Assembly (NCBI GenBank): GCA_023511565.1
Contig: JAIMBE010000005.1
Span: forward strand, 1-40,927
Reading direction: 5' to 3'
Length of the DNA stretch: 40,927 bases
Source of the DNA: Bacillota bacterium
Lineage (GTDB): Bacteria; Acidobacteriota; Terriglobia; Acidiferrales; UBA7541
Shown: piece after piece, positions 11,713-22,769 of the stretch
Position numbering within the stretch: position 1 is the first letter of the stretch
Layout of the letters: each line of letters opens with the position of its first letter
Notes under the pieces: model-generated
What the model saw: only the letters and a program-made list of their open reading frames with translations
The model's database searches: none
Told to the model about the DNA's origin: nothing
Program-made: the position numbers and the translations under genes

Positions 11713-13962
11713 ATGGACCGGCGTGACTTCATCAAGCTTTCGGCACTGACGGCGGGCGCAGCCGGGTTGGCCGGCTGTGGTCATCCCGACCACCAACTGA
11801 TTCGCTTCCTACCTGAGGAGAGCTGGATTCCCGGTGTCGCAACCTGGCGGCCGAGCCTCTGCCCGTTGTGTGCGGCGGGCTGCGGCGTGATGGCGCGGGT
11901 CATGGAAGGCGACGCGGAAGTCGTGCGCAATGGTCGCACGGGACTGCTGAGAATGGGCCTGGTGAAAAAACTGGAAGGCAATCCGGCCCATCCGGTCAAC
12001 CGCGGCAAGCTGTGCGCACGCGGACAGGCCGCCGTGCAAATTGTGTATCACCCCGACCGCATCCGGCAGCCACTGAAGCGTCGCGGAGAGCGCGGCACGG
12101 GTGAATTCGAACCAGTGGATTGGGACGAGGCCCTCAGCACGCTGGCGGCACGGCTGAAACAGGTTCTGGACGACGACCCGGCGGGGCTGGCGTGGCTTTC
12201 ACGGCCACTGCGGGGCGGGAAGCGCGTGCTGGTCGAGCGGTTTCTGGCAACACTCGCGGCGCCGGCGCCGGTCTATTTCGAACTGTTTGATGAATCCGTG
12301 TTGCGCTGGGCGAATCGGCTCAGCTTCGGGCGCGAGCAGATGCCCACTTATACGCTGTCCGTAGCGAACTACGTGCTCGGTCTGAGCGCCGATTTCCTGG
12401 GCACGTGGAATTCTCCGGTCGCACAGGCCATCGGCTACGGCGAATTCCGCCAGGGGCGCCCAGGCCGTCGCGGGAAATTCGTTCAGGTGGAGCCGCGCGT
12501 ATCACAAACCGGCGCCAATGCCGACGAATGGATTCCCATCCGGCCGGGTACGGAAGGCGCGCTGGCGCTGGGGCTGGCGCATGTGTTGCTGAACGAGGCG
12601 CGCCGTCCGACAACTGCTGCCGGCACAGCCGGTGAACGCATCGAGGGCTGGCTGCAGGGCCTGCCGGAATGGACGCCCGAGGCCGTCGCGGAGCAGACCG
12701 GCATTGAAGCCGAACGCATCCGGCGCTTAGCGCGGGAACTGATCGCGCACGAGCCCGCGGTGGTGATTGCGGGTGGGGCGGCGCTGGCGCAGACGAATGG
12801 CTTGGCCACGGCGCTTGCCGTGAATGCGCTGAACGCGCTGCTCGGCTGTGTGGGTGCGCTGGGCCCGGTTCGATTCACACCGCAACCGGAATCCACCGGT
12901 CTTGCGCCGCCGCATCGCACGCTGCGCGCGCTGGTGCAGAAGATTCTTTCGCGGCCAGAGTCGCCGGTAAAGCTGCTGTTGCTGTACGAGGCAAATCCGG
13001 TGTTTGCCACGCCGCCAGCCTGGCAGGTGGCCGCAGCACTCGACCGCGTGCCCTTCGTTGTGAGTTTCGGGAGCTTTCTGGACGATACAAGCATCCTGGC
13101 CGATCTGGTGCTGCCGGACCACGTCTTCCTGGAATCCTGGATGGACGATGTGCCGGAATCCGGCACCGAGCCAGCGGTCGTCAGCCTGGCTGCGCCTGCC
13201 ATGCGGCCGCTGCACAACACGCGCGCCATGCCTGACGTGCTGTTAGACCTCAGCCGGAGGGTCGGCGGCAGGCTGAACGAGGCGCTGCCGTGGAAGAGCT
13301 ACGAAGAGTTGTTGCGGGCACGCTTTGACGCACTGGCACGGCGGGCCGGCGCCGATGCCGACGCGTTCTGGAAGCAGGCGCTCGAGCGGGGTGGCTGGTG
13401 GAGTGACAACGGAGGGACACGCGCGGCCGCGCCCCGGCATGCCGCGGCCACCACCCGCCAGATTCGTTATCAGCCAGCCGAGATGGATGGATCGGTCGAA
13501 GAGTTCCCGTTCCATTTTCTGCCGTACGCGTCGCAAGCGTTCTATGACGGTACGACGGCACACCTGCCGTGGTTGCAGGAGCTGCCCGACGTGCTGACCA
13601 CAGCGATGTGGGGCAGTTGGGTGGAGCTGAACCCGCAGACCGCTGAGCGGCTCGGTATCCGACAGGGCGACCTGGTTGACGTGACGTCGCGGCACGGCAC
13701 GTTACAGGCTCCGGTCATCCTTTCCACCGGGATTGCGCCCGATGTGGTGGCCATGCCGGTGGGCCAGGGGCATCGCGCGTTTACGCGGTATGCCAGCCGG
13801 CGTGGCGCGAATCCTATTTCTGTGCTCGCGCCGCTCGAAGAGCCGGAAACAGGTGCGCTGGCCTGGGCAGCAACGCGGGTGCAGATCAGGCGCGCCGGTG
13901 TGGGTCGGCTGGTGTTGTTCAGTGGGGGCCTGAGCCGGTTCCCGCATCCTGAGGAACGCTGA
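11713..13962 (+). CDS. Molybdopterin-oxidoreductase-family (MopB) subunit, ActB1-like, Tat-exported
   Basis: The 749-residue protein starts MDRRDFIKLSALTAG, a Tat-type signal, with a lipobox-like LAGC at Cys22. An FS0-type cluster site is visible: C50-x2-C53-x3-C57 and C101 in KLCARGQ. The MopB body follows, with FVQVEPRVSQTGANADEWIPI, IRPGTEGALALGLAHVLL, LLLYEANPVFATPP and LVLPDHVFLESWMDD, and a C-terminal dinucleotide-binding domain (LGIRQGDLVDVTSRHG). Between C101 and LLGCVG (about residue 379) there is no Cys, so a cysteine or selenocysteine metal ligand is not seen. That favours the non-catalytic ActB1/putative-hydrogenase-like branch, although ActB1 in characterised alternative complex III has no FS0 cluster. 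Role: a structural or electron-transfer subunit on the outer face of the membrane. Confidence 0.85.
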   Translation: MDRRDFIKLSALTAGAAGLAGCGHPDHQLIRFLPEESWIPGVATWRPSLCPLCAAGCGVMARVMEGDAEVVRNGRTGLLRMGLVKKLEGNPAHPVNRGKLCARGQAAVQIVYHPDRIRQPLKRRGERGTGEFEPVDWDEALSTLAARLKQVLDDDPAGLAWLSRPLRGGKRVLVERFLATLAAPAPVYFELFDESVLRWANRLSFGREQMPTYTLSVANYVLGLSADFLGTWNSPVAQAIGYGEFRQGRPGRRGKFVQVEPRVSQTGANADEWIPIRPGTEGALALGLAHVLLNEARRPTTAAGTAGERIEGWLQGLPEWTPEAVAEQTGIEAERIRRLARELIAHEPAVVIAGGAALAQTNGLATALAVNALNALLGCVGALGPVRFTPQPESTGLAPPHRTLRALVQKILSRPESPVKLLLLYEANPVFATPPAWQVAAALDRVPFVVSFGSFLDDTSILADLVLPDHVFLESWMDDVPESGTEPAVVSLAAPAMRPLHNTRAMPDVLLDLSRRVGGRLNEALPWKSYEELLRARFDALARRAGADADAFWKQALERGGWWSDNGGTRAAAPRHAAATTRQIRYQPAEMDGSVEEFPFHFLPYASQAFYDGTTAHLPWLQELPDVLTTAMWGSWVELNPQTAERLGIRQGDLVDVTSRHGTLQAPVILSTGIAPDVVAMPVGQGHRAFTRYASRRGANPISVLAPLEEPETGALAWAATRVQIRRAGVGRLVLFSGGLSRFPHPEER

Positions 13963-13976
13963 GGAGGAGTGCAACG

Positions 13977-14687
13977 ATGAGCCGTCGCTGGGGCATGGTC
14001 GTCGATCTGGACCGTTGCACCGGCTGTGAGGCCTGCGTGGTGGCCTGCCGTGCGGAAAATAACGTGCCCACCGTGGGCGAAACCGAAGCCGCGCGCGGCC
14101 GGGCCATACACTGGATTCGAATCGAACGCTACTGGGAAGGCGAATTTCCCAACGCGCGAATCCGTTTTGTGCCCGTGCTGTGCCAGCATTGCGAAGCCGC
14201 TCCGTGCGAGCCGGTTTGCCCGACCTACGCCAGTTATCACACCGCCGACGGGCTGAACGCGCAGGTCTACAACCGTTGTATCGGCACGCGCTACTGCGCC
14301 AACGCCTGCCCCTACACGGTGCGCTTTTTCAACTTTTTCCATCCGGTCTGGGAGAAGCCGCTCCACCTGCAACTGAACCCGGAGGTCTCGGTGCGGGAAG
14401 TGGGGGTGATGGAGAAATGCACCTTCTGCGTGCAGCGCATCAAAGCCGCCGAACTTCAGGCCAAGGCGGAAGCGCGCGAGCTGCGCGATGGCGATGTGCA
14501 GCCCGCCTGCGCACAGGCCTGCCCGGCCGATGCACTTCTCTTCGGCGACTTGAATGACCCGGACAGCCGCGTCGCGCAGCTGGCGCGCTCGCCGCGCGGC
14601 TCGAAGCTGCTCGAAGAAGTGGGCACGCAGCCCAAGATCACCTATCTGGCCCGGCTGTCGTGGAGTGGTGATGGAGAAGACCGCTAG
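13977..14687 (+). CDS. Four-cluster ferredoxin subunit (ActB2/PsrB-like)
   Basis: The 236-residue protein carries the cysteine sets of NrfC/PsrB/ActB2 electron-transfer subunits: C14-C17-C20-C24, C69-C72-C77-C81, C101/C107/C111 and C148-C151-C178-C182. In CIGTRYCANACPY a Thr replaces the usual second Cys, so one cluster should be [3Fe-4S]. The total of fifteen cysteines fits three [4Fe-4S] plus one [3Fe-4S], as in alternative complex III. It passes electrons between NrfD and the MopB/cytochrome subunits. A GAGGAG site precedes ATG 13977, and its end overlaps the NrfD gene by 17 bp. Confidence 0.92.
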   Translation: MSRRWGMVVDLDRCTGCEACVVACRAENNVPTVGETEAARGRAIHWIRIERYWEGEFPNARIRFVPVLCQHCEAAPCEPVCPTYASYHTADGLNAQVYNRCIGTRYCANACPYTVRFFNFFHPVWEKPLHLQLNPEVSVREVGVMEKCTFCVQRIKAAELQAKAEARELRDGDVQPACAQACPADALLFGDLNDPDSRVAQLARSPRGSKLLEEVGTQPKITYLARLSWSGDGEDR

Positions 14688-16032
14688 CCGCATCAACGAC
14701 GACCTGCTGCGACCGGTGCTGGAAACCTCGCCGCGGTTCTATCTGGCTGTGGTGCTGGTCGGCCTGGTGGCGGCGCTGGGGTTTGTGGCCTGGGGGTATC
14801 AGATCTGGAATGGGATCGGCGTGGCGGGCATCAGCCGACCGGTGTTTTGGGGCTTCTACATCACCAACTTCGTCTTCTGGATCGGGATCAGTCATGCCGG
14901 CACGCTGATCTCCGCGATTCTGCGGCTGGCCAACGCCGGCTGGCGCCGTCCGGTGACGCGTTGCGCGGAGGCCATCACCGTGTTCGCCCTGATGATCGGC
15001 GCGATGTTTCCGCTGATCCACTTGGGACGGCCGTGGCTGGCGTTCTGGCTGTTCCCGTATCCGAACGAGCGCGGGTTGTGGCCGAACTTCCGGTCGCCGC
15101 TGCTGTGGGATTTCTTTGCCATCAACACCTATCTGCTGGGCAGCTTCCTGTTTCTTCTGCTGCCGATGCTGCCCGACTTTGCTCTGGTGCGCGACCGCGC
15201 ACGCGGTTGGCGCCAGCGCGTCTATGGCTGGCTGGCACTGGGCTGGGAAGGTACGCCGCGGCAGTGGCACCGGCTGGAGACGGCCATGCACATCATGGCG
15301 GTGCTCATCATTCCGGTGGCTGTTTCGGTGCATTCGATCGTGTCCTTCGACTTTGCGATGTCGCCGGTACCGATGTGGCATTCCACGATCTTCGCCCCGT
15401 ACTTCGTTGCCGGGGCGATTTTCAGCGGCCTTGCTGCGTTGATTCTGGCGATGGCCCTGCTGCGCAAACTCTTACACCTGGAGGAGTATCTGCGAACGGA
15501 ACACTTCAGCAATCTGGGCAAGTTGCTGCTCGTGATGAGTCTACTGTGGTTCTACTTTATCTTCGCCGAGCGGCTGACCGTGTGGTACGGCAACGACCCG
15601 GCGGAGATGGCGGTGTTTCGTGCGACGCAGTCCGGGCCCTACGCGCCACTGTTCTGGGTCATGGTGTTCTGCAACTTTTTGTTGCCGGTGCCGCTGCTGA
15701 CCATCCCGCGGCTGCGCACGATTGCCAGCACGGTGGTCGCTGCGCTCGGCGTGGTGGTCGGCATGTGGCTGGAACGGTTCCTGATCATCGTGCCCGCGCT
15801 AGCGCACAAGTTCCTGCCGTACAGTTGGGGCACGTACGCGCCGACCTGGGTGGAAATCACCATCACCGTGGCAACGTTCGCGGGCATGGTGCTGCTCTAC
15901 ATGCTGTTCGCGAAACTGGTGCCGGTCATTTCGGTATGGGAGTGGAAAGTGGGCCGCCACCCGCTTGCGGAGCAACGGGCAGAGATTTCTCCAGCAGTGG
16001 CGAAAACGGTTGCGCCGGAGGGGTCCGCGTGA
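14671..16032 (+). CDS. NrfD/PsrC-like integral membrane quinol subunit (ActC-like)
   Basis: The 453-residue protein has about ten transmembrane helices and the NrfD signatures FWGFYITNFVFWIGISHAG, MFPLIHLGRPW, WDFFAINTYLLGSFLF, IIPVAVSVHSIVSFDFA and LWFYFIFAERLTVWYGN. In ACIII, ActC binds menaquinol at the periplasmic side, and conserved His/Asp/Arg residues in these helices are proposed for quinol binding and proton movement. I chose ATG 14671 rather than the longer open frame from 14554, which runs inside the ferredoxin gene out of frame. The stop overlaps the next start (GTGA). Confidence 0.92.
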   Translation: MEKTASRINDDLLRPVLETSPRFYLAVVLVGLVAALGFVAWGYQIWNGIGVAGISRPVFWGFYITNFVFWIGISHAGTLISAILRLANAGWRRPVTRCAEAITVFALMIGAMFPLIHLGRPWLAFWLFPYPNERGLWPNFRSPLLWDFFAINTYLLGSFLFLLLPMLPDFALVRDRARGWRQRVYGWLALGWEGTPRQWHRLETAMHIMAVLIIPVAVSVHSIVSFDFAMSPVPMWHSTIFAPYFVAGAIFSGLAALILAMALLRKLLHLEEYLRTEHFSNLGKLLLVMSLLWFYFIFAERLTVWYGNDPAEMAVFRATQSGPYAPLFWVMVFCNFLLPVPLLTIPRLRTIASTVVAALGVVVGMWLERFLIIVPALAHKFLPYSWGTYAPTWVEITITVATFAGMVLLYMLFAKLVPVISVWEWKVGRHPLAEQRAEISPAVAKTVAPEGSA

Positions 16033-16550: not shown

Positions 16551-16693
16551 GCTGCCCCGGGCAGTTCTGGGCGAAGCCGTATGGGTCCGGGCTAGAGGAA
16601 ATCTGAATCCTTTTGCTGCGGCCCAGTATCGTATCTTTGCAGGGCCAGAGTCGTTTCCAGGGTCATGTTCCACCGTGCTTGGAGGGCAAGCAA

Positions 16694-17392
16694 TTGCCAA
16701 ATCGGAAGTACAGTTTTTCACCGGCGCAGGATGAAGATGGTCCGCTGGTCGAACGCACACTGGAAGGGGACCGGCAGGCCTATGAGCAGCTCGTGCGGAA
16801 ACACGAAAAGCGCGTGTTCCGCACCACGATTGCGATTCTGGGTGAGCTGGCCGATGCCGAAGAAGCCATGCAGGAAACGTTTCTGAAAGCGTACCAGAAC
16901 CTGCATACCTTCCGGCGGGATGCGCGTTTTACCACGTGGCTGACGCGCATTGCGGTGAACGAATCGCTGCAGATTCTCCGCCGCCGGCGTGATACGGCTG
17001 CGCTGGATGACCCGGAAACCGCACCGCAAAACCTCCGGCCCCACCGCGTCGAGGAGTGGTACGCCAATCCTGAGCGGCACTATGCGGCGGCGGAGCTGAA
17101 GCGCATTGTCGAAGAAGCCATCCGTGCGCTGCCGCCGACCTATCGTGTGGTCCTTCTGTTGCGAGATGTCGAAGAGCTGAGCACGGAAGAAACCGCTGCG
17201 GCCCTGGGACTTTCGATTCCAGCGACGAAGTCGCGCGTGTTGCGCGCCCGGCTGATGGTGCGCGAAGCGCTGGCCGCGTATTTCGAAAAACCGCCAACGC
17301 TGCGTTCGCGCCTGCGTCGCGCCACCAGCATGGTACGCAACATGATGGCCATGGCTTTGGAGCGGCCCGGCGGTTGGTTTGGTGGGAGGTAG
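16694..17392 (+). CDS. ECF-type sigma factor
   Basis: TTG 16694 has GGAGGG (16681-16686) at ideal distance and gives 232 residues. Region 2 is clear (YEQLVRKHEKRVFRTTIAIL, DAEEAMQETFLKAYQNL and TWLTRIAVNESLQILRRRR). Region 4 follows (AIRALPPTYRVVLLLRDVEELSTEE, AALGLSIPATKSRVLRAR). There is no region 1 or 3, as expected of extracytoplasmic-function sigma factors. The tail after region 4 (about 40 residues, RSRLRRATSMVRNMMAMALE) is longer than usual. The anti-sigma follows within 3 bp. ECF factors often control their own operon and a nearby envelope gene, here perhaps the secreted protein and DUF3179 genes. Confidence 0.93.
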   Translation: MPNRKYSFSPAQDEDGPLVERTLEGDRQAYEQLVRKHEKRVFRTTIAILGELADAEEAMQETFLKAYQNLHTFRRDARFTTWLTRIAVNESLQILRRRRDTAALDDPETAPQNLRPHRVEEWYANPERHYAAAELKRIVEEAIRALPPTYRVVLLLRDVEELSTEETAAALGLSIPATKSRVLRARLMVREALAAYFEKPPTLRSRLRRATSMVRNMMAMALERPGGWFGGR

Positions 17393-17394
17393 CC

Positions 17395-17634
17395 GTGCTG
17401 ACCTGTCAGGAAGTGTTGGACAACTTGTCGTGTTACCTGGATGGCGAAGGCTCCGAAGAACTGCGGCGTGAGCTGGAACGTCACATCGCGCGCTGTGCGC
17501 AGTGCTTCGTGATTGTGGACACCACGAAGCAATCGCTGCGCATTATCGCGGATTGCGAGCCGTTTGAAGTGCCGCTGGCGACCAGCGCGCGACTCTACGA
17601 GCGGCTGGCCCATTTTTTTGCGGGTCTGTTGTGA
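17395..17634 (+). CDS. Zinc-finger anti-sigma factor (ZAS/zf-HC2), short
   Basis: GTG 17395 follows GGGAGGT and opens 79 residues. The ZAS motif is ERHIARCAQC (H-x3-C-x2-C) with an upstream Cys in LTCQEV and NLSCYLDGE before the finger. It lacks a transmembrane helix, so it is probably a soluble, zinc- or redox-switched anti-sigma like RsrA: cysteine oxidation would expel zinc and free the sigma factor. The start is in the sigma gene's shadow, 3 bp past its stop, so dosage is coupled. Confidence 0.85.
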   Translation: MLTCQEVLDNLSCYLDGEGSEELRRELERHIARCAQCFVIVDTTKQSLRIIADCEPFEVPLATSARLYERLAHFFAGLL

Positions 17635-17722
17635 GAGCGGCGCAGCACGTTCGCTTCGCTCACAGCGGCCCGGGGATCCCCGTGATGCAGTACCCAGATA
17701 TGGAGTTAAGGAGGCTCGAACC

Positions 17723-18103
17723 ATGAAACTGCTACGACAACTCCCGATTCTCGTTCTGGCTATGGCCATCGGCGCCGGCATCAGCGTGGCGCAGAAAGAG
17801 GTCACGCTGGAAGGCACGCTGGTGGACAGTAAGTGCTACCTGGCCATGAACGAGGCCGGCAACGACCACGGTGCGATGAAAGGTTGTGGAACCATGTGTC
17901 TGAAAGGTGGCACCCCCGGCGGGCTGCTGACCAAAGACAAGCAGTTCCACGCCATCCTCGCACCGTCCACTGCCCTGGCCGATTACGTCGGACAGGCAAT
18001 TCGTGTGCAAGGCTCGATCCACAACGGTTCTATCATGGCCAAGAAGGTGGAAGTCCGGAAAAACGGTCGGTGGGAAGAGATCAAGCTCGGCGCTATGATG
18101 TAG
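17723..18103 (+). CDS. Secreted protein with conserved cysteines, unknown function
   Basis: ATG 17723 has a strong TAAGGAGG site. The 126-residue product has a signal peptide ending near SVAQ (residue 23), then VTLEGTLVDSKCYLAMN, a His/Gly loop (NDHGAMKGCGTMCLKGG), GGLLTKDKQFHAILAPS and a beta-rich end (IRVQGSIHNGSIMAKKVEV). The strands and length suggest an OB-like barrel; the three Cys (K-C-Y, G-C-G, M-C-L) and His could bind metal or a heme-like ligand. I do not recognise a named family. It follows the anti-sigma gene by 88 bp and may be in the sigma regulon. Confidence 0.8.
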   Translation: MKLLRQLPILVLAMAIGAGISVAQKEVTLEGTLVDSKCYLAMNEAGNDHGAMKGCGTMCLKGGTPGGLLTKDKQFHAILAPSTALADYVGQAIRVQGSIHNGSIMAKKVEVRKNGRWEEIKLGAMM

Positions 18104-18262: not shown

Positions 18263-19321
18263 ATGCGGGTGAAGTTCGATGCGGCGGTTCGTGCCTTGCT
18301 GCTGGCCGCGGCCGTGACGGCGAGCGTTGTAGCCGTCAACGCGCAGCAGCCCTCGAGGACCGAGGAGCGGATCGGCGATGGCATCATGGTCACTGTGCTC
18401 CCTAAAGATGCCATCCCGGCGATCTGTAATCCCGAGTTCATTTCGCGAGAACAAGCCGAGCCGCTGATGGACGACGACGAGCCCGTGCTGGGTCTGGTGG
18501 ATCCGCAGACAGGTCAGGCCAGGGCGTATTCGCTGTGGCATCTGGACCGGCACGAAATCGTCAATGACCGGCTCGGGGGCAAGCCCATCGCGGTCACCTG
18601 GTGACCCCTGGCACACACGGGTGTCGTGTACACCCGCAACGTGGCGGGCCGGGAAATTGAGTTGGCCGTCAGCGGCAAGCTCTACAAAGACGCGCTGGTG
18701 ATGTACGATCGGGAGACAGGCACACTGTGGGCGCAGGTAGATGGTTCCGCGCTCCGCGGGCCACTCCAAGGACACCGCCTCGAAGAAATCCCTGCCGTGC
18801 AGGCTCCGTGGAGGCTCTGGAAGCAGCTTCATCCTGATACACTCGTGCTGCGCAAACCGGCGGGTGTGCGCGGCTCGCCCTATGCCGATTACTTCCGTGA
18901 CCCGAACCGTCAAGGGCTGTCTGGCACGCGGGGGGACAGCCGGCTGGGCGGCAAAGAGATGGTGATCGGGCTGCACGAAGCGGGTGACGCCGTGGCCATC
19001 GCTGTGGCCCGGTTAAAAACCGAGCCATTGGTGAACACCAAACTGAACCGCAAGCCGGTCATTGTGTTCTATGCGATCGGTGCGCAGACGGCAGCGGTGT
19101 TCCGTCCTTTCGCCGGAGGGCGCTGGCTGAATTTTCGGCTGGTGCGGCGCAAGGGGAGCGTGCATCTGGAAGACGCGGAGACAGGATCGCAGTGGTCCCC
19201 GCTCGAAGGGCGCGCGATCAGCGGTCCGCTTGCGGGGACGCAGCTCGAGCGCGTGCCCTACCTGCACAGTTTCTGGTATGCCTGGTCGGCCTACCGCCCG
19301 CAGACGCGCCTGCTCCGCTGA
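18263..19321 (+). CDS. DUF3179 protein with UGA at the conserved cysteine (candidate selenoprotein)
   Basis: ATG 18263 starts a signal peptide (RALLLAAAVTASVVAVNAQQ). The frame then reads as a textbook DUF3179 protein, including HEIVNDRLGGKPIAVTW, to a TGA at 18602-18604 (codon 114). It continues in the same frame PLAHTGVVYTRN, VSGKLYKDALVMYDRETGTL and HPDTLVL to the stop at 19321, 352 residues in all. Family members have W/Y-C-P-L-C here, so the UGA stands exactly on the first Cys, while the second Cys is Ala. A perfect 7-bp hairpin follows. There is no shift and no other lesion, and both halves keep family conservation, which argues for selenocysteine rather than a pseudogene. The function of DUF3179 is not established; an exported, UGA-bearing redox or metal site is inferred. 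It closes the sigma/anti-sigma cluster. Confidence 0.72.
18618..18636 (+). promoter_or_regulatory. Candidate bacterial SECIS hairpin of the DUF3179 gene
   Basis: CGGGUGU (18618-18624) and ACACCCG (18630-18636) pair perfectly around the 5-nt loop CGUGU, whose second base is G. The loop begins 21 nt after the UGA (20 nt between). Stem length, loop size, distance and loop G all fall within the described bacterial SECIS range and mirror the glutaredoxin hairpin. Confidence 0.62.
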
Positions 19322-19573: not shown

Positions 19574-21958
19574 TTGCGAGAAATTGCATTCGGCGCTCCA
19601 GGTATTGAGCCGCGGTGGACATCCAGCTCCAAAGAGGGTGTGGGCACGGCGTATTCGACGGCAAGCCGCGTCTGGTTCACGCTTTCCCACGGCATTCTGA
19701 ACGAGATCTATTACCCCACCATTGACCGACCACAAACGCGCTACATGCAGCTTCTGATTACCGACGGAGCTACGTTCTTCCATGAAGAACGGCGGCATCT
19801 GCGCAGCACGGTCGAATATCTGCAGCGCGACACCCTTGGCTACCGCATTTGCAGCGAAGACCCCGAAGGGCGCTACCGCCTGCAGAAAGAAATCCTCTGT
19901 GACCCGCACCAGCCTTGCGTGCTGCTCCGCGCCCGACTCCAACCGGCGCCTGAATGGAAGGACAAGCTGCGCGTCTACGTTCTGCTGGCACCTCACCTCG
20001 AGGTGGGCGGATGGGGCAATTCGGCCTGCGTCGCTTCTGCCGCAGGCCAGCGAATCCTGCTCGCCTGGAAAAAACAGACCTGGCTGGCGCTGGGCGTCGA
20101 AGGCAGCTTTGCACGCGCTTCGTGTGGCTACGTAGGGGTCAGCGACGGCTGGCAGGACCTCCACGACAACCTGCAGATGGACTGGGAATTCGCGGCGGCG
20201 CTCGAGGGCAACATCGCTGTGCTGGGGCAGGTGGACCCTGCGGCGCTGCCGGAGTTCACTGTGGCCCTAGCCTTCGGCCCCAGCCGGCACGCCGCCATCA
20301 CCACGCTGATGCAATCGCTGGCGATTCCTTTTGCGCAGCATCGCGAAAAGTACATCGAGCAGTGGAACCGCGTTTGCTGCGATGTGGTGCCCCTTGACGA
20401 ACACGCCGGCGATGGCGGCCGCCTGTTCCGCATCAGCCACAGCCTGTTGCTGGCCCATGAGGACAAGACCTACGCGGGCGCCCTGATTGCTTCGGCCAGC
20501 ATTCCCTGGGGCGAAGCCAAAGGAGATGAAGACATCGGTGGCTATCACCTGGTTTGGACGCGCGACCTGGTCAACAGCGCAACCGGCCTGCTGGCCTGCG
20601 GCGATCAGATCACTCCGCAGCGCGCCCTTGTCTATTTGGCCTGCTCGCAGCGCGCTGACGGCGGGTTCCCGCAGAATTTCTGGCTTGACGGCACACCCTA
20701 CTGGAGCGCAATTCAACTGGACGAAGTGGCCTTTCCAGTGATGCTGGCCTGGCGACTGTGGAAGGCCGACGCGCTCGGCGCAATTGACCCCTACCCGATG
20801 GTTGTCTCGGCCGCTCGGTTTTTGATTCTCAACGGCCCGGCGACGGAGCAGGAACGCTGGGAAGAAAACGCCGGCTACTCACCCTCCACACTGGCCGCGA
20901 ACATTGCCGCGCTGGTCTGTGCGGCAGACTTCGCCCGCGCACGAAGCGATGAGGTTCTCGCCCGGTTTCTTGAGGATTACGCCGATTTTCTCGAGTCCCA
21001 TCTTGAACGCTGGACGGTCACGACCGACGGAACCCTGGTCGCCGGCATTCCCCGGCACTACATCCGCATCCATCCCGTCAATCCCGGAGACCCGTATGCT
21101 GAAGAAGACCCGAATCGGGGTTGGATCCAGATTCGAAATCGTCCGCCGGCCGAGCCGGCCTGGTTCCCGGCCAAAGACATCGTGGACGCGGGCTTTCTTG
21201 AACTGGTGCGCTACGGCATCCGCCGGCCCGGCGACCCGTTGATCGAGGATTCCCTCCGGGTCGTGGATGCGGTCTTAAAGGTCGACACGCCGGCTGGGCC
21301 ATGCTGGCATCGCTACAACCACGATGGGTATGGTTCCACCGCGGACGGCGGCCCTTTCCTCGGCTGGGGCGTCGGACGCGCCTGGCCGCTGCTGACCGGC
21401 GAACGCGGCCACTATGAACTGGCAGCAGGCCGCGACGCCCGCCTGTACTTGAACGCTCTGGAGCAGCTTGCCTCAAGTGGTGGCCTGTTGCCCGAGCAAG
21501 TCTGGGACGAGCCGGGTCACCCGCGACTGGGCCGCCCGGCCGGCAGCGCCATGCCCTTGATGTGGGCCCACGCTGAGTACATCAAACTGTTGCGCTCCAT
21601 TACCGATGGCCAGGTGTTTGATTGCATCCCGGTGGTGGCCGAACGCTACCTGAAGCGCCGCGGTCGCAAAGACCTCGAGGTGTGGAAGCCGAACCGCCGG
21701 CCGCGCCGCGTCGCGGCCGGACAAACCCTGCGCGTGCAGGCGCCGAAAGCATTCCGCCTCCACTGGACCCTGAACGGATGGAGCACGATCCACGATACGA
21801 TGGCTGCGGATACCGCACTGGGAATTTACTTCGTGGATGTGCCTGTGCCTCGCTCGCAAACCGCTCCGGTACAGTTTACGCTTTTCTGGACCGACGAAGA
21901 TCGCTGGCACGGAGAAGATTTCACGGTCGCTGTAGAAGCTGCAGAAAAGGGTGCATAG
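19574..21958 (+). CDS. GH15 glucoamylase / glucodextranase-like enzyme
   Basis: The 794-residue protein starts at TTG 19574 with AGGAGAG in front. An N-terminal beta-sandwich (residues 1-270; SRVWFTLSHGILNEIYYPTID, LLITDGATFF) is joined to a six-helix (alpha/alpha) barrel: YHLVWTRDLVNSATGLLACG, DGGFPQNFWLDGTPYW, the acid Glu in ERWEENAGYSPSTLAA (near 430), and the base Glu in LLPEQVWDEPG (near 641). A small C-terminal domain (after 700) has a beta fold. GH15 enzymes release glucose from the non-reducing ends of alpha-glucans. No signal peptide is seen, so it probably acts inside the cell on glycogen, maltodextrin or trehalose-like stores. The glycosyltransferase gene overlaps its end. Confidence 0.93.
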   Translation: MREIAFGAPGIEPRWTSSSKEGVGTAYSTASRVWFTLSHGILNEIYYPTIDRPQTRYMQLLITDGATFFHEERRHLRSTVEYLQRDTLGYRICSEDPEGRYRLQKEILCDPHQPCVLLRARLQPAPEWKDKLRVYVLLAPHLEVGGWGNSACVASAAGQRILLAWKKQTWLALGVEGSFARASCGYVGVSDGWQDLHDNLQMDWEFAAALEGNIAVLGQVDPAALPEFTVALAFGPSRHAAITTLMQSLAIPFAQHREKYIEQWNRVCCDVVPLDEHAGDGGRLFRISHSLLLAHEDKTYAGALIASASIPWGEAKGDEDIGGYHLVWTRDLVNSATGLLACGDQITPQRALVYLACSQRADGGFPQNFWLDGTPYWSAIQLDEVAFPVMLAWRLWKADALGAIDPYPMVVSAARFLILNGPATEQERWEENAGYSPSTLAANIAALVCAADFARARSDEVLARFLEDYADFLESHLERWTVTTDGTLVAGIPRHYIRIHPVNPGDPYAEEDPNRGWIQIRNRPPAEPAWFPAKDIVDAGFLELVRYGIRRPGDPLIEDSLRVVDAVLKVDTPAGPCWHRYNHDGYGSTADGGPFLGWGVGRAWPLLTGERGHYELAAGRDARLYLNALEQLASSGGLLPEQVWDEPGHPRLGRPAGSAMPLMWAHAEYIKLLRSITDGQVFDCIPVVAERYLKRRGRKDLEVWKPNRRPRRVAAGQTLRVQAPKAFRLHWTLNGWSTIHDTMAADTALGIYFVDVPVPRSQTAPVQFTLFWTDEDRWHGEDFTVAVEAAEKGA

Positions 21959-22769
21959 GGACAAACTCCATTCCGCATTTTTCCAGGAAGGGACGGCGAC
22001 GGTCCGCCAGAGAGGTGCAACACTTCCGTCTGTGACCCCGCCGCCGGCTGTCGAGCTCCGCACTCGCGCGGCTCCTGACCTGCACGCCGAAGCGCCGCGC
22101 ATCGGCATCGTCGTGCCGGTGCTGAACGAAGCGGCGATCCTTCCCACTACGCTTACGAAATTGCGCGAGCTGGCGTGGGACTGCCCGGTCGTCGTGGCCG
22201 ACGGCGGCTCGTCCGACGGCTCGGTCGAAATCGCACGGCAGTTTTTCCACGTCGAGCGCTGCCCGGTGGCCGGCCGCGGTCCGCAGATGAACCGCGGCGC
22301 GCGTTGCCACGACGCCGACGTGCTCCTGTTCCTCCACGCCGACAGCGAATTGCCCACCGGCTGGCAGGCGCACATCCGCCACGCGTTGGCTGACCCGCGC
22401 GTCGCCGGCGGCTGCTTCCGCCTGGAATTCGACGTGCCCCGGCCGATGCTCCGCTTCTATTCCTGGTTCACGCGGTTCCCCGGCAGGTTTTTCCATTTCG
22501 GCGACCAGGGATTCTTCGTGCGCCGGGAAATTTTCTGGCGCCTGGGTGGCTTCCGCGAAGTACCGTTCCTCGAAGACGTGGACTTTCTGCGGCGGCTGCG
22601 GCGGTACGGAGAATTCGCCGTGCTGCCGGCGGCGGTGCGGACTTCAGCACGGCGGTTTCTCCGCCACGGCACCGTCCGACAGCAGCTCCGCAACATTGCG
22701 CTGGTTGTGCTGTTTGAACTCGGCGCCTCACCCGCGCAACTCGCGCGGCTTTACCCCCACAGCCGCTGA
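21951..22769 (+). CDS. Family 2 glycosyltransferase (TIGR04283-like)
   Basis: The GT-A fold is clear: IGIVVPVLNEAAILPTTLTKL, VVVADGGSSDGSVEIA, GPQMNRGARCHDADVLLFLHADSELP (with the metal-binding H-A-D), RVAGGCFRLEFD, and GDQGFFVRREIFWRLGGF with the catalytic acidic EDVDFLRRL. This layout (272 residues or fewer, no membrane helix) is that of TIGR04283 glycosyltransferases, a group named from arsenosugar gene clusters; the acceptor is unknown here. The open frame starts with GTG 21951, overlapping the previous gene by 8 bp; GTG 22032 is an alternative. Neither has a good ribosome site, so coupling to the upstream gene is likely. Confidence 0.87.
   Translation: MHRDKLHSAFFQEGTATVRQRGATLPSVTPPPAVELRTRAAPDLHAEAPRIGIVVPVLNEAAILPTTLTKLRELAWDCPVVVADGGSSDGSVEIARQFFHVERCPVAGRGPQMNRGARCHDADVLLFLHADSELPTGWQAHIRHALADPRVAGGCFRLEFDVPRPMLRFYSWFTRFPGRFFHFGDQGFFVRREIFWRLGGFREVPFLEDVDFLRRLRRYGEFAVLPAAVRTSARRFLRHGTVRQQLRNIALVVLFELGASPAQLARLYPHSR

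Follow-up and report, generated by a model that had tools for sequence, protein, structure and literature searches.

A predicted DUF3179 selenoprotein of the Acidobacteriota with alanine in place of the partner cysteine: a UxxA variant within a known selenoprotein family

The window, by which we mean the whole stretch of 40,927 nucleotides analysed here (contig JAIMBE010000005.1), carries on its forward strand a DUF3179 gene whose frame contains a single internal TGA, at codon 114, and is itself terminated by TGA (Table 1). The gene lies downstream of genes for an ECF-type sigma factor and a protein without family assignment, and a GH15 glucodextranase-like gene separates it from the gene for a TIGR04283-family glycosyltransferase; in the nearest relative, L013, the glycosyltransferase gene stands directly 3' of the DUF3179 gene, and next in that locus come DUF547, VTT and MerA-like flavoenzyme genes. 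The order of sigma factor, unassigned ORF, DUF3179 and glycosyltransferase was common only to the window and L013, being absent from the more distant loci checked, so among these loci the context says little about the general function of the family. In the literature consulted, no paper linking TIGR04283 to arsenosugars was found. Further upstream, at 11713-16032, are genes for molybdopterin, iron-sulphur and NrfD subunits, the first two of which resemble subunits of Qrc-type menaquinone reductase with scores below the NCBIfam cut-offs.

Table 1. Features of the DUF3179 locus, in window coordinates
Feature	Position	Strand	Remarks
ECF-type sigma factor gene	16613..17392	+	Upstream neighbour; kept in the nearest relative, L013
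Gene for a protein without family assignment	17513..18103	+	Between the sigma factor and DUF3179 genes; kept in L013 (55% identity)
DUF3179 (PF11376) gene, predicted selenoprotein	18263..19321	+	352 residues with predicted Sec114; under purifying selection before as well as after the UGA
N-terminal signal peptide (MRVKFDAAVRALLLAAAVTASVVAVNA-QQ)	18263..18346	+	Predicted by eye from the sequence; AlphaFold2 helix 7-23, residues 1-29 of low confidence
Internal repeat 1	18467..18850	+	About residues 69-196; bears the Sec site; half-versus-half profile-profile match
In-frame UGA, predicted Sec114	18602..18604	+	Position one of the family C-x-x-C site, here U-P-L-A
bSECIS-like hairpin	18618..18636	+	Stem 7 bp, CGGGUGU/ACACCCG (18618-18624 pairing with 18630-18636); loop 5 nt, CGUGU (CGTGT, 18625-18629); start 13 nt and loop 20 nt past the UGA; -9.8 kcal/mol
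Internal repeat 2	18944..19318	+	Residues ~228-352; active site no longer retained; the model shows a beta fold of two repeats
TIGR04283-family ('arsenosugar biosynthesis') glycosyltransferase gene	21951..22769	+	222 bits, cut-off 182

The Pfam profile PF11376 matches residues 48-348 over its entire length (1-292 of 292, E=5.6e-81), spanning the TGA, and the score of 272.6 bits against a gathering cut-off of 27 places the protein within the family. Since the profile is matched full length through the TGA, the gene contains no indel or frameshift, and both the lone TGA in an otherwise intact frame and the change of the partner Cys to Ala, as first proposed for this gene, are borne out: the UGA is aligned to the conserved Cys, and the residue at Sec+3, which is Cys or Thr in UxxC/T members, is Ala (UPLA). 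The protein has a single other Cys, Cys55, which is unconserved among relatives. The NCBIfam scan gave no model matching the protein. From the predicted signal peptide, we infer that the product is exported.

In the AlphaFold2 model, built from 13 sequences (pLDDT 87.9, pTM 0.86), residue 114 is the last of strand 107-114, which belongs to a beta-hairpin within the first beta repeat. Conserved positions further along the protein include W183, W186, H190, P191 and T193. The two halves of the protein are homologous (profile-profile probability 99.9%, E=1e-31), with FYAIGAQTAAV of the second repeat aligned to TWUPLAHTGVV of the first, and it can be inferred that the protein consists of two tandem repeats, with the active site kept only in the first. 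A search of solved structures by sequence returned zero matches up to E=1. When BFVD was searched with the model, it matched a giant-virus protein, Indivirus ILV1 A0A1V0SD44, in the DUF3179 fold, with an E-value of 8e-9 and a TM-score on the target of 0.57.

DUF3179 was found in 58 of 201 genomes (the window's own and 200 relatives), with dozens of the genes having exactly one in-frame TGA. When 93 frames were aligned, the TGA fell at the window's exact codon in 55, none of which had a second TGA within the domain, while nearly all of the remaining frames had Cys (TGC/TGT) or Ser at that codon and not one of the 93 had TAA or TAG. At the protein level, a search through 396 genomes of the phylum yielded another 17 TGA members, spread over many families. 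Two loci, L016 and L021, from bacteria HR08 and HR10, hold pairs of DUF3179 genes ~2 kb apart, each gene with one in-frame TGA. Comparing the window gene to three relatives, dN was ~0.3-0.5 and dS above 1.3 both before and after the UGA; both flanks are under purifying selection. The TGA could be supposed to reflect gene decay through a nonsense mutation, or an assembly or sequencing error, given that the assembly is a draft of 235 contigs and that decayed genes often show single in-frame stops. However, the same codon is TGA in the 55 aligned homologs, from many genera, and in the 17 from the phylum search, dN lies well below dS past the UGA and other lesions are absent. We therefore consider decay or error vanishingly improbable and, judging by the TGA conserved in independent genomes, already refuted. 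The original prediction had likewise held that the gene is unlike a decayed one, and had named as evidence against Sec TAA or TAG at the site in close relatives, reads with TGC or TGT in place of the TGA, or a complete genome without sel genes; the alignment contains no such stops, a relative at 63% identity has the identical TGA and UPLA motif, and the sel genes are present.

The window's own genome, a draft of 2.6 Mb in 235 contigs and 90.8% complete, was searched for the Sec genes as had been proposed, and all four were found: selA (565 bits), selB (379 bits, cut-off 242), selD (366 bits) and selC, a tRNA-Sec with anticodon UCA (72.6 bits, with which ARAGORN concurs). The selD frame (L055, G000:C211:10287-11222) itself contains an in-frame UGA in the context AAGUAAK, which we take to be the usual Sec/Cys site of SelD. 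SelD of this genome is thus probably a selenoprotein in its own right, and DUF3179 does not appear to be the only gene of this genome to use Sec. Among genomes at least 90% complete, selB was present in 27/27 of those with TGA-containing DUF3179 and in 11/16 of those with only non-TGA forms (p=0.005, shared ancestry ignored). Three TGA-bearing genomes had no detected selB, and all are less than 90% complete; in genomes such as G146, G174 and G177, where selB was likewise undetected, DUF3179 is the Cys form and the hairpin is absent or weak.

The original prediction of a 7-bp hairpin shortly past the UGA was confirmed in position, stem and loop. By folding energy alone this hairpin is unexceptional (z=-0.53 for the 60-nt region), and for that reason comparative tests on the homologs were used; a synonymous-shuffle control on the window's own hairpin was also weak (p=0.10), so that it is a convincing SECIS candidate only through comparison with homologs. 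The published bSECIS rules call for a loop of 3-9 nt, a stem of 4-16 bp, a G among the first two loop nucleotides, a spacing of 16-37 nt and an MFE of -7.5 kcal/mol or below (PMC13188914), and the window's hairpin lies within all of these limits (loop 5, stem 7, spacing 20, -9.8 kcal/mol). The strict rule, coded such that bulged stems were disallowed, was passed by 44/53 TGA homologs, compared to 10.8 expected from synonymous codon shuffles, and by 1/33 homologs without TGA, compared to 2.2 expected, though shared ancestry inflates such pass counts. Those TGA homologs that failed mostly had a one-base bulge within an otherwise similar stem; the UxxA member L159 also fails. Not only the pass counts but also the z-scores from synonymous shuffling separated the two groups (mean -1.13 with TGA versus -0.03 without, p=4e-6). 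In 23 same-register sequences, 99.4% of the stem cells were paired and 3/7 pairs had changed on both sides, counts that shared ancestry again inflates; the covariation score was reached by 0/500 shuffles, and none of the slid controls had comparable values. Within the UxxA clade alone, a U-A/C-G exchange is seen at one stem pair.

If the UGA were a true stop, the standard bacterial code would end the frame at 18604 and the functional product would be a truncated protein of 113 residues. We judge this very improbable: a further 238 codons are conserved with low dN/dS, the downstream codons complete the first fold repeat and supply the entire second, and the hairpin has been kept, with compensatory changes in its stem. 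Nor is it appealing to suppose that, through a code change or suppression, Trp or some other standard amino acid is inserted at the UGA. Any read-through would yield the same open frame, but the gene's own terminator is TGA, the homologs offer Cys and sometimes Ser at the site, not Trp, and the full Sec machinery is present together with the SECIS-like hairpin, all of which makes standard read-through extremely improbable. On the comparative evidence, we regard Sec insertion at the UGA as close to certain, and Sec insertion and DUF3179 membership taken jointly as highly probable. The placing of Sec at residue 114, as originally predicted, agrees with the sel genes, the 55 TGA homologs and the hairpin comparison alike.

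It can thus be proposed that SelA and SelD would produce Sec-tRNA(UCA), that SelB would recognise the hairpin at 18618-18636 and bring Sec to the UGA at 18602-18604, and that the product would be an exported protein of 352 residues with Sec114 in the first of its two tandem beta repeats. Most relatives have a UxxC or CxxC pair at the same site, from which an internal selenenylsulfide or disulfide could form. With Ala as the partner and a domain essentially devoid of other Cys, Sec114 would act as a lone selenol. This selenol may be oxidised by a substrate, whether an oxidant, a disulfide or a metalloid or soft-metal compound, and the oxidised Sec114 may then be reset by an external thiol. To a redox role in which an external thiol resolves Sec114 we would give about an even chance. 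In two Gemmatimonadota homologs, L018 and L019, the active site reads SxxT, with both redox residues absent; a redox residue would then be dispensable in some members of the family, which tells against a redox role. Alternatively, the inserted Sec may bind a soft metal or a metalloid, such as mercury or arsenic, instead of acting as a redox catalyst. The UxxA clade does lack a resolving Cys, and the TIGR04283 'arsenosugar biosynthesis' glycosyltransferase lies nearby, joined in L013 by the DUF547, VTT and MerA-like flavoenzyme genes; however, of the genomes checked, only the window's own and that of its nearest relative have this neighbourhood, and the UxxC/CxxC pair kept in most family members is typical of redox sites. 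We find the ligand role rather unlikely.

The proposal that this gene represents a new selenoprotein family does not hold. DUF3179 (pfam11376) is already tabulated as a selenoprotein family, with the motif UxxC/T and without an assigned function, in the reviews PMC9312934 (2022) and PMC13188914 (2026), the former crediting the first report to Zhang & Gladyshev 2007 (PMC1976440), on the Olavius algarvensis symbiont. The UxxA form is missing from the DUF3179 entries in the tables of both papers, and what is new, to judge by the literature consulted, is a UxxA subfamily in which the partner Cys has been lost, not the family. Of the 55 TGA frames, 46 have Cys at Sec+3, 6 have Ala (from 5 distinct genomes) and 3 have Thr. 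In the tree, the UxxA sequences make up one clade of 13 sequences across the Acidobacteriota, with one nested Cys form, while the larger UxxC-containing group that encloses this clade has only modest support (0.67). Leaving aside the window's protein, Cys is absent from the domain of L013, of L027 and of the UxxA sequences that the phylum search found. PMC13188914 tells subfamilies apart by where Sec lies or by the motif that contains it, and by this criterion the UxxA clade would be a separate subfamily, a variant within a known family. That it is distinct in a chemical sense as well, with one selenol, no Cys and a chemistry unlike that of the UxxC members (a mono-selenol peroxidase or reductase, or soft-metal or metalloid binding), is a tentative proposal to which we give slightly less than an even chance.

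Forms in which Cys occupies the Sec site were observed at several loci. The nested Cys form of the UxxA clade is L160 (G381:C141), a CxxA protein with Cys at the Sec site and the partner Cys still absent. Five others, L042, L043, L045, L050 and L089, are Cys-form DUF3179 proteins of class relatives without detected selB; they are nested in a UxxC clade, mostly lack the hairpin and likely represent Sec-to-Cys conversion. L040 (G131:C24) is a CxxC homolog (TGC) with a near-identical SECIS-like hairpin, in a genome that also has UGA copies and selB, which suggests a recent Sec-to-Cys change.

These findings bear on gene models, since dozens of Acidobacteriota DUF3179 genes would be split or called pseudogenes wherever annotation takes UGA for nothing but a stop. 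They also place within one family a natural series of UxxC, UxxT, UxxA, CxxC, CxxA and SxxT forms, in which Sec was retained after loss of the partner Cys and Cys forms occur in lineages without selB, and which makes the retention of a lone selenol, as well as the role of DUF3179, directly testable questions.

Comparing the window's protein to known systems, Foldseek aligned ~95 residues of the model with several Rieske ferredoxins (probability 0.98-1.00, E-values 0.04-0.08). Homology to Rieske proteins (PF00355) was rejected, as hhalign gave a probability of 0.9-2.0% and the Pfam scan contained no Rieske match at E<=10, so the likeness to Rieske iron-sulphur proteins is structural only and membership is not backed by sequence profiles. 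The hairpin resembles the bSECIS consensus (PMC13188914, Fig. 2) in its 7-bp stem, its 5-nt loop with G at position 2 followed by U, its 20-nt spacing and its energy of -9.8 kcal/mol, and differs from it in nothing essential, although in a subset of the gene's relatives the stem is bulged or the loop is shifted. With the known DUF3179 selenoproteins (UxxC/T), the protein shares the same Pfam family over its full length and a predicted Sec as the first residue of the xxC site, but it differs from them in that the partner is Ala (UxxA), in a clade that extends across the Acidobacteriota and whose domain is largely free of Cys.
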